From Pseudomonas fluorescens (GTDB taxonomy: Bacteria > Pseudomonadota > Gammaproteobacteria > Pseudomonadales > Pseudomonadaceae), in assembly GCF_002022275.1 (NCBI RefSeq), contig NZ_MSDF01000014.1:336099-400098 (forward strand): a DNA stretch of 64,000 bases. The letters are read 5' to 3'. Position numbers and translations under genes: made by a program. The notes under the pieces are model-generated. The model had not been told where the DNA came from. It made no database searches and saw only the letters and a program-made list of their open reading frames with translations. Below, piece by piece: positions 15,654-22,163 of the stretch (its first letter is position 1; the number at the start of each line of letters is the position of its first letter).

Positions 15654-16622
15654 TTACGGCGCTTTGGCAACGGCGGCGGGTGGCGTCCAGATCACGTCCT
15701 TGATGTTCAAGGGCTTGGGGATCAATTTGAGTTGGTAAAAGCTGTCAGCGATTTTCTGTTGGGCGGCGACCACTTCCGGGGTCAGGAACAGCGCGCCGTA
15801 GCCTTGGCGTTTCACCGAGGTCAGGGTGATGTCAGCCGGCAGGCCGAGCAGCGGCGCGACTTGCTCAGTCACCTCCTGCGGGTTGGCCTTGGACCATTCG
15901 CCCACCGCGCGCACTTCTTCCACCAGCGCCTTGATCACTTCAGGGTGCTGTTCGGCGTAGGGTTTGGTGGCCAGGTAGAACTGGTGGTTGTCGGCAATGC
16001 CGGTACCGTCACGCAGGGTGCGCGCTTGCAGTTGTTTCTCGGCGGCGGCCTGATACGGGTCCCAGATCACCCAGGCGTCCACGCTGCCGCGCTCGAAGGC
16101 GGCACGCGCGTCGGCGGGCGGCAGGAACACGGTCTGCACGTCGGTGTATTTCAGGCCGGCATCTTCCAGCGCACGCACCAGCAGGTAGTGCACGTTGGAG
16201 CCTTTGTTCAGCACGACTTTTTTGCCCTTGAGCTCGGCCACGGATTTGATCGGCGAATCTTTCGGCACCAGGATCGCTTCACTGGTCGGCGCTGGCGGCT
16301 CGTAGGCCACATACAGCAAGTCGGCGCCGGCGGCCTGGGCGAAGACCGGCGGGGTTTCGCCCGTCACGCCAAAATCGATCGAGCCGACGTTCAGGCCTTC
16401 GAGCAATTGCGGGCCGCCGGGGAATTCAGTCCATTGCACTTGCACGCCCTGAGCGGCCAGGCGCTTTTCCAGCGAGCCCTTGGCCTTGAGCAGCACCAGC
16501 GTGCCGTATTTCTGATAACCGATCCGCAGGGTTTCAGCGGCCTGGGCTTGAACAATGGCGCCGAAGGACACAGCCGCAGCAAACAGTGCGACCAGACCAC
16601 GACGCAAGATGACAGTGCGCAT
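15654..16622 (-). CDS. ssuA: Aliphatic sulfonate-binding periplasmic protein SsuA
   Basis: Periplasmic binding protein of 322 residues, with a signal peptide ending near VQAQA-AE (about residue 28). The SsuA/TauA fingerprints are [61 protein letters not shown] and [21 protein letters not shown]. It delivers sulfonates to SsuBC. It lies 95 bases downstream of ssuE, enough for an mRNA processing site or an internal promoter, although none is clear. Confidence 0.94.
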
Positions 16623-17626: not shown

Positions 17627-18265
17627 TTAACGGTTAGGTTGTGGGGTCAGTCGCAGGTACGGCTTCACCGCACGATACCCCTTCGGAAAGCGCTTCTTGA
17701 TCTCTTCCTCGTCCTTGAGCGACGGCACGATCACCACTTCATCGCCATCCTGCCAGTTGGCGGGGGTGGCGACCTTGTGGTTGTCGGTCAGCTGCAGCGA
17801 ATCAATGACCCGCAGGATTTCGTGGAAGTTGCGGCCGGTGCTGGCCGGGTAGGTAATGGTCAGGCGAATCTTCTTGTTCGGGTCGATCACGAACAAGGAA
17901 CGCACGGTGAGGGTGTCACTGGCGTTCGGGTGGATCAGGTCGTAAAGGTCCGACACTTTGCGATCGGCATCGGCCAGGATCGGAAAGTTGACGACGGTAT
18001 TCTGGGTTTCGTTGATGTCTTCGATCCACTTGTGGTGCGAGTCCACCGGGTCGACCGACAGGGCAATGGCTTTGACGCCGCGTTTGGCGAATTCATCCTT
18101 GAGCTTGGCGGTGAAGCCCAGCTCCGTGGTGCACACCGGGGTGAAGTCAGCCGGATGGGAAAACAGCACGCCCCAGCTATCGCCCAGCCATTCGTGGAAA
18201 CGAATTTTGCCGGCGCTGGAATCCTGCTCGAAGTCGGGGGCGATGTCGCCCAGTCTTAGGCTCAT
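17627..18265 (-). CDS. lsfA: 1-Cys peroxiredoxin LsfA (Prx6 type)
   Basis: Peroxiredoxin of 212 residues of the Prx6/1-Cys class. The peroxidatic Cys45 sits in FSHPADFTPVCTTELG, the long C-terminal domain shows RVIDSLQLTDNHKVATPANWQ, and no resolving Cys is seen. It reduces peroxides, and in Pseudomonas lsfA is induced by sulfate starvation and contributes to oxidative-stress resistance. Its position next to ssuE is the standard arrangement. The upstream DNA is AT-rich with its own palindrome at 18329-18346. Confidence 0.92.
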   Translation of the reverse strand: MSLRLGDIAPDFEQDSSAGKIRFHEWLGDSWGVLFSHPADFTPVCTTELGFTAKLKDEFAKRGVKAIALSVDPVDSHHKWIEDINETQNTVVNFPILADADRKVSDLYDLIHPNASDTLTVRSLFVIDPNKKIRLTITYPASTGRNFHEILRVIDSLQLTDNHKVATPANWQDGDEVVIVPSLKDEEEIKKRFPKGYRAVKPYLRLTPQPNR

Positions 18266-18537: not shown

Positions 18538-19896
18538 TTACTTGAACGCGTAGCTGTAGCTGACGATTACGCGGTTTTCGTCCTGGGAACGGGTGTTCAC
18601 CAGGTCGGTACGCCACATAGCGTTTTTCCAGGCTACGCCGAGGTTTTTCAGCGGGCCTTCCGGAACAACGTAAGCCAGAGTCAGGTCGCGTTCCCACTCG
18701 GTTTTTTCACCGACGACGGTGTCGATGTTGCTGCCTTTGAGGTAAACAACACCAGCGGTCAGGCCAGGTACGCCGACTTTGGCGAAGTCATAGGCATAAC
18801 GTGCTTGCCAGGTACGCTCGCCAGCGCGGGCGAACTTCTGGATCTGCATGTCGGTGGTGGTGCTGTTGGACGAACCGTCACCCTGGTTCAACCAAGGGAA
18901 GTCGCTGTCGCCCTTGGTGTACTGGTAGCCAGCACCGAAGGTGTGACCGGCAACCGAGTACAACGCCAGGTAGCTGTACAGATCGTTGTCGACCTTGCCT
19001 TTAACCTTGGTGGCGTTGGTCGGGTGATCCGAGTAGTAACCGGTGGTGTAGTAGCCCGCTTCGTTACCGTTGGCACCGTTGTCACGGCTGCGGTAGTAGC
19101 GCAGGTCACTTTTCAGCACGCCAGGACCGATAGCCCAGTTGTGGACCAGGCCCAGGAAGTTCTGCGCGTAGAAGTCCTTCAGCTCGCCGAAGTAGTACGA
19201 AGCGGTCAGATCTTTGGTGATTTTGTAGTCAGCACCGGCGTAGTAGAACTTGTTGACGAAGTTGCCTGCGTCGTAGTTCGAGCTACCGTTGGCGCCAGCC
19301 AGCGACAGGCCTTCGTTGTTGCTGGAGTTACGGCCTTTGGCGTGCTCGATCTGACCAGCGGTCAGGGTCAAGTCTTTGATCTCGTTGGAAGAGATCTCGC
19401 CGCCCTGGAAGGTTTGTGGCAGCAGACGACCGTCGTTGGTCTTGATGACCGGGTTGTTTGGCTGCAGGGTGCCGATTTTCAGCACGGTCTGGGAGATTTT
19501 GACCTTACCGGTCACACCCAGGCTGGCAAAATCGTTGACGGCTTTGTTGCCATCGCTTGGGAACACGGTACCGCCCGAAGCAGTGCCAGTGTAGTTACCG
19601 TGTTCGGCACGGCTGGAATCCAGGCGCACGCCGTACAGGCCGATTGCATCAAGACCGAAGCCAACAGTCCCTTGGGTGAAGCCGGAGATGAAGCGCAGGT
19701 CGAAACCCTGGCCCCATTCAGCGTTCTTGTTGCGGGTGTTGGACGTGCCGGATGGCTGGCCATCGCGGTTGTCGGTGTTGATGTAGAAGTTACGCAACCC
19801 CAGCGTAACCTTGCTGTCATCGATGAAACCGGCGGAGTTCGCCTGTTGGGCAACCGCAGCCAAAGCTACAGCCAACGCCAATGTTGACTTCTTCAT
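18538..19896 (-). CDS. OprD-family outer-membrane porin
   Basis: Porin of 452 residues with a signal peptide (KKSTLALAVALAAVAQQANS-AG) and the OprD barrel pattern of alternating strands, including KVTLGLRNFYINTDNR, NAEWGQGFDLRFISGFT, GEISSNEIKDLTLTAGQIEHAKGRN and the C-terminal NRVIVSYSYAFK ending in an aromatic-Lys pair. OprD members admit amino acids, small aromatic acids or similar solutes. The substrate of this one is not visible and no specific Occ name is justified. GAGGAGCGG precedes the start. Transcription is probably single-gene. Confidence 0.92.
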   Translation of the reverse strand: MKKSTLALAVALAAVAQQANSAGFIDDSKVTLGLRNFYINTDNRDGQPSGTSNTRNKNAEWGQGFDLRFISGFTQGTVGFGLDAIGLYGVRLDSSRAEHGNYTGTASGGTVFPSDGNKAVNDFASLGVTGKVKISQTVLKIGTLQPNNPVIKTNDGRLLPQTFQGGEISSNEIKDLTLTAGQIEHAKGRNSSNNEGLSLAGANGSSNYDAGNFVNKFYYAGADYKITKDLTASYYFGELKDFYAQNFLGLVHNWAIGPGVLKSDLRYYRSRDNGANGNEAGYYTTGYYSDHPTNATKVKGKVDNDLYSYLALYSVAGHTFGAGYQYTKGDSDFPWLNQGDGSSNSTTTDMQIQKFARAGERTWQARYAYDFAKVGVPGLTAGVVYLKGSNIDTVVGEKTEWERDLTLAYVVPEGPLKNLGVAWKNAMWRTDLVNTRSQDENRVIVSYSYAFK

Positions 19897-20265
19897 GTAC
19901 CGCTCCTCTCATTTCTAATTTTTGTATTTCTTAGGTCCCGGGTCTGACGCCCTGGATCCACAGATGCGCGATTAGCGCCGGATAGTGACTACCAAGTCAA
20001 TCGTAACTTTGTATGTCTACTACCTTCGTCTAACCGCAGTTGATTTGGTCCCTGCAGGGTAATGAGTTTTTCATACACCCAAAAAGAATGTTTTCATTCT
20101 TTTTCATACGATTCAGGCATAAGACTTTTCATAAAGCGAGCCGGCAGCGTAGACCAACTGCTCCATTAGCTAATGCCTGAACGGTATTTATCTGCCTTTT
20201 TTTAGATCGATTAGCGTGGCCGTACTGTTGCATACGTCACCGACGATCAAAAAGGCGACGCCATC
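19897..20265. promoter_or_regulatory. oprD upstream region with A/T-rich hairpin
   Basis: This 369-base gap has no gene I can support. It contains the oprD leader and the hairpin AAAAAGAATG-TTTT-CATTCTTTTT at 20081-20104. The hairpin is flanked by two copies of TTTTCATAC (about 20068 and 20101). The hairpin could terminate transcription in either direction, which would fit an old gene boundary between oprD and the tau-like remnant. Confidence 0.45.
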
Positions 20266-20745
20266 ATGGCCAAACGCACATCCTCCCGTCAATTTGTTAC
20301 AGTTTTTGTGTCACTAATAATTTCTTTTGGTGTCCAAGCGGCCAATTTCACCGGCGGCTACCAAACCGGTATTAGCCCCTTTCGTATCGGCACAGATCAG
20401 CGCTTCTGAAGACTTACCGCTGAGTCTGGCGGGCAATGCCCTTCGTCCCAATCTCTCATTACAGCCTGCTCGATGCCCTGAAGCATTGGAGGCCGGACAC
20501 CCAACAGGTCAACGTGGTGAAGCGGCAGCCGGGCGAAATTCGCAAGACCGATAAAACCCTGAAAGACACGACCCAATTGAGCGGGTGGGCGCTCCGACGT
20601 TTGAAACGTGGGTGGCACGCAAGGATTTGGCGGGAAAATATCTTGACGTAGTGGACAGGTTTACAAGGATTCAGAGCAGGCTCAAAAAATCGCCAAATTG
20701 ACAGGTTACTCGGCGCTCGTCACAGACACGTTCATCTGCCAATAA
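20266..20745 (+). pseudogene. Decayed taurine-binding protein gene (tauA-like)
   Basis: Pieces of one TauA/SsuA-type periplasmic binding protein appear in order but in different frames. At 20266-20409 is a signal peptide-like start (MAKRTSSRQFVTVF..SFGVQA-AN) leading to GGYQTG and an early stop. At 20439-20590 is PFVPISHYSLLDALKHW, then TQQVNVVKRQPGEI, then KTLKDTTQLSGW. At about 20586-20660, in another frame, is GAPTFETWVARKDLAGKY followed by LDVVDRF, a close TauA family match. A last piece, EQAQKIAKLTGYSALV, ends at 20745. Compared with a roughly 320-residue TauA, two large parts are missing, including the region just after GEI. No tauBCD genes are present. It is a dead gene. Confidence 0.75.
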
Positions 20746-20755
20746 ATGCAACCAA

Positions 20756-20843
20756 CTGTGGGAGCTGGCTTGCCTGCGATGCTGACAACTCGGTCTTCCA
20801 GTGAAACCGAGGTGATGCAATCGCAGGCAAGCCAGCTCCCACA
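20756..20843. repeat. REPIN before argA end
   Basis: Inverted TGTGGGAGCTGGCTTGCCTG units with a 30-base spacer. It lies between the tauA-like remnant and the argA stop. Confidence 0.92.
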
Positions 20844-20864: not shown

Positions 20865-22163
20865 TCAGAGAGCCTTCTCGAAAATCTTCGAATTACGCTG
20901 ATAGTTGTACAGCGACGCCCGCGCCGACGGCAGGCGATCCACCGTACTCGGCACAAACCCCCGCTCACGGAACCAGTGAGCGGTTCGGGTGGTGAGTACA
21001 AACAACGTCTTCAACCCCTGCGCGCGCGCGCGGGTCTCGATGCGCTCCAGCAACTCATCACCGCGACCGCCGTGGCGGTACTCCGGGTTCACCGCCAGGC
21101 ACGCCAGCTCACCGGCATCGGAATCGGCGATCTGATACAGCGCCGCACAGGCGATGATCATGCCTTCGCGCTCGACCACGCTGAACTGCTCAATCTCACG
21201 CTCCAGCACTTCCCGCGAACGCCGCACCAGAATGCCCTGCTCTTCCAGCGGGCTGATCAGGTCGAGCAAACCGCCGACGTCTTCAATTGCTGCTTCGCGC
21301 ACCAGCTCGAATTGCTCCTGAGCCACCAGCGTACCGCCGCCGTCCCGGGTAAACAGCTCGGTGAGCAAGGCGCCGTCCTCGGCGTAACTCACAATATGGC
21401 TACGCCCTACCCCGCCACGGCAAGCCTCGGCAGCGGCATCGAGCAGTTCCGCCTGGTAATTGCTGCCCAGGCGCAGGAGGTGCGCCGGTACTTGCTGTGG
21501 ACCCAATTCACGCACCAGACGGCCATGCTCGTCGATCAGGCCCAGGTCGGCGCCAAACAACAGCAACTTGTCGGCGCCCAGGTCAATGGCGGCGCGGGTG
21601 GCCACGTCTTCGCAGGCCAGGTTGAAGATTTCACCGGTGGGCGAGTAGCCCAGGGGCGACAACAGCACGATAGAGCGCTCGTCCAGCAGGCGGTTGATGC
21701 CCTTGCGGTCGACGCGGCGCACTTCGCCGGTGTGGTGATAGTCCACGCCTTCGAGCACGCCGATCGGCCGCGCCGTCACCAGGTTGCCGCTGGCCACGCG
21801 CAGGCGCGAGCCCTGCATGGGCGAGGACGCCATGTCCATCGACAGGCGCGCCTCAATGGCGATACGCAAGTGGCCGACCGCGTCGATCACACACTCCAGC
21901 GTCGCGGCATCGGTGATGCGCAGGCCTTCGTGGTAAGCCGGGGTCAGGCCGCGTGCTTCAAGACGGGTTTCGATCTGTGGGCGTGAGCCGTGAACCAGCA
22001 CCAGCCGCACACCCAGGCTGTGCAGCAGCACCAGGTCGTGGACGATATTGCCGAAGTTCGGATGTTCCACACCGTCGCCGGGCAGCATGACTACAAAGGT
22101 GCAGTCCCGGTGAGCATTGATGTAGGGCGAAGCGTGACGAAGCCAATTAACGTATTCGGGCAT
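20865..22163 (-). CDS. argA: Amino-acid N-acetyltransferase (N-acetylglutamate synthase) ArgA
   Basis: Two-domain enzyme of 432 residues. The N-terminal amino-acid-kinase-like domain (about 20-280; VVMLPGDGVEHPNFGNIVHDLVLLHSLGVRLVLVHGSRPQI) carries arginine regulation. The C-terminal GNAT domain (about 290-432; LACLAVNPEYRHGGRGDELL, then TTRTAHWFRERGFVP) does the acetyl transfer. It makes N-acetylglutamate from acetyl-CoA and glutamate, the first step of arginine synthesis. Length matches the bacterial ArgA family. It follows argE with a 135-base gap, so it may be expressed with it or from its own promoter. Confidence 0.95.
   Translation of the reverse strand: MPEYVNWLRHASPYINAHRDCTFVVMLPGDGVEHPNFGNIVHDLVLLHSLGVRLVLVHGSRPQIETRLEARGLTPAYHEGLRITDAATLECVIDAVGHLRIAIEARLSMDMASSPMQGSRLRVASGNLVTARPIGVLEGVDYHHTGEVRRVDRKGINRLLDERSIVLLSPLGYSPTGEIFNLACEDVATRAAIDLGADKLLLFGADLGLIDEHGRLVRELGPQQVPAHLLRLGSNYQAELLDAAAEACRGGVGRSHIVSYAEDGALLTELFTRDGGGTLVAQEQFELVREAAIEDVGGLLDLISPLEEQGILVRRSREVLEREIEQFSVVEREGMIIACAALYQIADSDAGELACLAVNPEYRHGGRGDELLERIETRARAQGLKTLFVLTTRTAHWFRERGFVPSTVDRLPSARASLYNYQRNSKIFEKAL

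Follow-up and report, generated by a model that had tools for sequence, protein, structure and literature searches.

The closest described relatives of the gene considered here are taurine-binding proteins of the TauA family (TIGR01729), and intact orthologues at its place, between the porin gene oprD and argA, pass the cut-off of that family (444 versus 304.25 bits). Two things set the locus apart from described TauA systems: the copy in the window, by which we mean the whole 64,000-nucleotide stretch of DNA that was analysed, is dead, and the intact gene of relatives is solo, without tauBCD. The source genome of the window is a Pseudomonas genome of 6.82 Mb, spread over 65 contigs, and the named loci closest to its neighbourhood belong to the P. 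fluorescens group. The features discussed below are collected in Table 1; the 1-Cys peroxiredoxin gene beyond oprD is presumably lsfA.

Table 1. Features of the oprD-argA region, in window coordinates
Feature	Position	Strand	Remarks
ssuA, living aliphatic sulfonate binding protein	15654..16622	-	TIGR01728, above cut-off
lsfA-like 1-Cys peroxiredoxin	17627..18265	-	profile matches
oprD-family porin gene	18538..19896	-	Pfam PF03573, 446 bits
Conserved oprD-proximal block	19897..20120	-	by position, oprD leader and promoter region
Element E	20241..20328	not assigned	around the old tauA start codon (5' UTR to about codon 20)
Decayed solo tauA	20266..20745	+	start codon kept, seven deletions relative to the intact orthologue
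Core of E	20294..20312		TTGTTACAGTTTNTGTRTC; only genome copy at up to 3 mismatches
T-run 3' of the core	20321..20328		TTTCTTTT in the window
REP-like inverted repeat	20757..20843	not assigned	many genomic copies
argA, amino-acid N-acetyltransferase	20865..22163	-	TIGR01890, 720 bits

The decayed tauA and its intact relatives

Flanked by oprD and argA, a series of TauA-like blocks follows in order along the plus strand, with the reading frame changing between them. A first-pass annotation of the region had taken these blocks for the remains of a dead TauA-family gene and had regarded a block containing LDVVDRF as the best evidence. Both points are borne out. The GAPTFETWVARKDLAGKY-LDVVDRF block pairs with GAPTFEVWVARKDFAEKH-PDVVAKF of a relative, and the alignment to an intact orthologue (L010:1542-2528), which spans 20266 to about 20752, contains seven deletions (182, 30, 11, 66, 1, 55 and 162 nt) but is free of internal insertions. 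Four of these deletions (182, 11, 1 and 55 nt) are not multiples of three and shift the frame. With the deletions and in-frame stops, no intact reading frame exists in the window tauA, and the longest ORFs inside it are 75 and 71 aa. The match to TauA is far beyond chance, because the best match in the genus is 95% identical over 148 nt (E 5e-61) and a fragment scores 3.8e-6 against TIGR01729 when the whole genome is searched in six frames. One fragment of 20266-20745 scores 2.9e-7 against the same profile, and fragments of the window gene reach 30 bits at most, with the cut-off at 304.25.

Across the decayed segments, identity to L010 is 80% (268/334), compared with 86-91% at the same positions for the genes of seven relatives, one of which (L016) has a nonsense codon. 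Selection on the protein has therefore been absent from the window tauA for some time. Its first 107 nt are identical to L010 at 100 positions. Directly 3' of the dead gene lies the REP-like inverted repeat, for which a search of the genome returned 86 rows, counting both strands and the query itself.

Comparison of the same locus in relatives also upheld the assignment to TauA. In genome G197 (locus L010), this place holds an intact gene of 328 aa that scores 444.1 bits against TIGR01729, above the cut-off for this taurine-binding equivalog. Of the 379 relatives that a scan of GTDB species genomes turned up, the best 80 were kept as named loci; as they were picked for closeness to the intact gene, they are uninformative on how often it decays. 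The order oprD (minus), tauA (plus), argA (minus) is found in 78 of the 80, and the remaining two are cut off by the end of a contig. Between tauA and argA, none of the 78 loci that reach argA has a tauB, tauC or tauD, and none lies beside the window copy. The tauB- and tauC-like matches found beyond ssuA in three named loci are read as ssu transporter genes. Two consecutive oprD matches stand ahead of the solo tauA in 13 of the 80 (L121, L127, L128, L129, L131, L133, L138, L139, L141, L142, L146, L149 and L150).

Searched with TIGR01729 at E 0.01, the source genome gives 16 matches, of which two exceed the cut-off. Contig C41 carries a full tauABCD, in which tauA, tauB, tauC and tauD score 451, 453, 385 and 493 bits against NCBIfam cut-offs of 304, 357, 342 and 313 bits; contig C39 (L067:5063-6948) carries the second tauA above the cut-off, followed by tauD without tauBC. 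Because these genes are present, losing the window copy is not the same as losing the taurine genes. The first-pass annotation had described a lost taurine uptake locus of which no tauBCD is left. This part did not survive: the capacity is kept, and tauB, tauC and tauD are all recognisable on C41.

What became of any tauBCD at this place is a separate matter. A tree of 36 TauA proteins falls into two deep groups, one of main operon TauA and a second that holds the C39 tauA, the operon-borne tauA of G043 and G146, G009, and all 22 of 22 solo genes. The solo proteins form one clade (support 96/97), and the C39 protein is a long branch within the group. Nine main-type TauA rows in the tree have tauB alongside. 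In nine loci (L155, L161, L162, L222, L224, L230, L231, L236 and L238) a main-type tauA with tauB, instead of argA, adjoins oprD. Among the operon-borne genes of the second group, the one in G043 adjoins oprD and the one in G146 lies near lsfA. Since the solo clade sits inside a group that holds operon-borne tauA, an older loss is possible: tauBCD may have gone from the second operon before the solo group radiated, which, if true, would explain the solo state. To this extent the proposed loss of a tauABCD locus may hold, as an older event. That a complete uptake locus decayed here to a single dead tauA is nevertheless improbable. Membership of the solo gene in TauA by the family cut-off and the positions of its operon-borne relatives near oprD and lsfA speak for it; the solo state in 78/78 relatives' loci reaching argA and the two intact sets of genes elsewhere speak against it, and for the taurine capacity of the source genome it is already refuted.

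Decay is not confined to the window. Broken solo tauA copies with other lesions occur in other genomes of the genus and, because their lesions differ, several separate losses are likely. In a survey of 298 genomes, 56 of the 135 with the conserved element described below had no full-length solo tauA. A gene counts as full-length here if it matches almost the entire query with at least 84% identity; among the 79 full-length genomes, G119 has one in-frame stop. An argA tree of 88 genomes (scored by a scripted rule as 44 broken and 44 intact) requires 26 state changes, nearly the mean of 29.5 for shuffled labels. Its well-supported branches force only 2 changes, and this tree is poorly resolved.

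Conservation of the old 5' end

The first-pass annotation overlooked that conservation persists at the 5' end of the dead gene: about 75 nt around the old start codon are nearly unchanged across related species after the death of the gene. We refer to this stretch as element E. Column conservation over 20257-20316 is 0.88 in 28 loci without an intact solo tauA and 0.88 in 78 intact loci, whereas in the 60 columns that follow, the former score 0.53 and the latter 0.82. The mean pairwise difference among 24 loci without intact tauA (276 pairs) comes to 0.151 for E (20241-20310) and 0.074 for its 3' part (20286-20312). Two spacers give 0.51-0.52, the four-fold sites of argA 0.377, and the stretch 20166-20216 gives 0.34; the oprD-proximal block, at 0.118 in 24 tauA-less loci, is also strongly conserved.

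Two further features lie between oprD and the old tauA. The block at 20166-20216, upstream of the old tauA, has GCTAA...TTAGC arms, is better kept where tauA is intact, where its conservation is good, than where it is broken, and is perhaps the tauA promoter. Inside the oprD block, an inverted repeat, AAAAAGAAT...ATTCTTTTT (window 20077-20110), is by its look a candidate regulator site.

Similarity to the E stretch itself had been used to draw up the first lists of loci, a choice that favours retention. We therefore repeated the test with loci selected by the oprD block alone, which gave 168 matches in 298 genomes. All 125 genomes with a block match at an expect value of 4.9e-34 or below also match R1, a model of the element, and no tauA-less close relative without E occurs among these 125. 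A full-length solo tauA is missing from 51 of them, and 51/51 match R1; base-by-base inspection covers part of this set. In five of the 51 (G006, G044, G070, G141 and G169), a main-type tauA adjoins oprD; four of these have an altered core, and in the remaining one no core was found. R1 matches once per genome in 135 genomes, all of which also match the oprD block. The block is present without an R1 match in 33 of the 168 genomes. Twenty of these were inspected: 2 have the core and 18 do not, the latter comprising 13 with argA beside oprD and 5 with a main-type tauA there.

Does E persist on account of the protein it once helped to encode? The core is unchanged despite frame-breaking deletions inside E (L033, L035 and L036), and also where the start codon is gone (L223 and L226). 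Among 64 non-redundant intact genes (from 76 usable of the 80), synonymous change is 0.18-0.19 in codons 1-20 versus 0.24-0.54 in later ten-codon blocks, scored as different codons at identical amino acids with codon families unmatched between blocks. Because the core survives frameshifts and loss of the start codon, and because synonymous change is lowered, these comparisons show E to be under selection at the nucleotide level, independently of the protein.

With up to 3 mismatches allowed, the core has its one site in the source genome and a reversed control has two. Nothing similar was found in plasmids or in phages. Searched at E in the window, L151, L156, L219 and L223, Rfam 15 gives no match; the Rfam matches near the gene sit on the REP-like hairpin, below gathering scores. 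No title or abstract opening returned by a literature search dealt with the locus, which is a statement about those openings and not a claim that E is absent from print.

Possible roles of element E

The conservation of this 5' end suggests a second, regulatory job. In its most general form, and tentatively, E may be an undescribed single-copy non-coding element of the genus, either regulatory DNA or a small RNA, over which the tauA signal peptide is written and which outlives the gene at each of its deaths. Our preferred reading, to which we give a probability of about 0.5, is more specific: E would be a distal upstream regulatory site of oprD, and the solo tauA would have decayed owing to the other tauA genes. 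According to this model, the gene for a solo taurine-type binding protein long resided between oprD and argA, with its reading frame laid over E, a non-coding element in its first ~80 bases. The gene has decayed by deletions and frameshifts, here and in many related lineages, presumably because the genome's other tauA genes make the solo copy redundant. E would act from a distance of ~390 nt from the oprD start codon, where a regulator or DNA-bending protein bound to it could affect the promoter region of oprD (19897-20120).

We favor the oprD site because the position of E is fixed with respect to oprD, and not to argA or tauA, and because conservation at the nucleotide level is accompanied by neither a stable RNA fold nor a terminator. 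Computed for 129 of the 135 genomes, the distance from E to oprD is 283-341 nt, with 119 within 325-345; the distance to argA varies from less than 100 nt to more than 1 kb. The constant distance could be mere synteny. A single-copy core is unusual for a regulator's operator and counts against an oprD site, as does the altered or missing core in the five genomes with a main-type tauA beside oprD. As 18 of the 20 inspected R1-less genomes keep the oprD block and not the core, oprD can do without it.

Searches for a familiar signal at E were negative. No known regulator site was recognised there, and the window, L151, L219 and L223 share no consistent sigma-70 promoter. A minus-strand promoter candidate, TTGACG-18-CATGAT, was rejected, being found in the window and L151 and absent from L219 and L223. 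Also rejected was a second operator, a site in the oprD block (19988-20018) that resembles E. By shuffling, its likeness to E was equalled in 3/500 cases for L223 and 24/500 for the window, and across 60 loci the median p was 0.20, with 4 at 0.02 or below. A genome search with the joint motif returned the oprD site only.

The T-run and the single-copy core make a small RNA the main rival to the oprD site. E would then be a small RNA gene, or the 3' end of one, on the plus strand and ending at the T-run, with the signal-peptide codons of tauA overlaid on it. The near-invariant 19-nt core, present once per genome, would fit such a gene. So would the placement of the T-run, which lies within 30 nt of the core in 35/41 tauA-less and 15/15 intact loci (36/42 and 14/14 with L178 counted as broken); further downstream, at 40-70 nt, it lies in none of these loci (0/41 of the tauA-less ones). 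We nevertheless consider a small RNA rather unlikely, since the T-run is preceded by no stable hairpin, the consensus fold is weak (-1.9 kcal/mol with z -2.8 for the plus strand; z -0.2 for the minus strand), terminator scans at E are negative in the window, L151, L219 and L223, and no Rfam family matches. The candidate plus-strand promoter block, at 0.34 versus 0.377 for argA four-fold sites, is barely more conserved than those sites.

If, instead, the conservation were a sampling accident at the slowly decaying end of a pseudogene, the bias of the first lists, drawn by similarity to E, would account for it. This is very unlikely: the set chosen by its flank has E in 125/125 genomes, the adjoining spacers differ three times as much, and intact genes, too, show constraint at their synonymous sites. 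Slightly less credible still is a short leader peptide, MAKRxxSRQFVTVFV, that E would encode and that would still be translated. The frame stops soon after the core in L160-L162 and L155, and codons 2 and 3 show wobble-like changes, as a translated peptide would have it; yet the frame is broken in L033, L035, L036, L153 and L164, and the start codon is gone in L223 and L226, with the core unchanged in all of them.

Significance and comparison with known systems

Pseudogenes are usually written off, and here the repeated death of one gene exposes a hidden element. The loss of tauA in multiple species amounts to a natural experiment that separates selection on the protein from selection on the nucleotides. 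If E does control oprD, a porin gene beside sulfonate genes, it would offer a short and testable target. For annotators, the tauA remnant should not be taken to mean that taurine use has been lost.

The decay itself resembles that of other pseudogenes of redundant transporter genes, which likewise carry deletions and frameshifts and have working copies elsewhere; unlike in those, the nucleotides of the 5' end here have been preserved long after the protein was lost. E is akin to regulatory or RNA elements that overlap the 5' ends of coding sequences, with which it shares the lowered synonymous change across codons 1-20. It differs from such overlapping elements in that no described Rfam family matches and in that, in many species, the reading frame is lost while the element stays.
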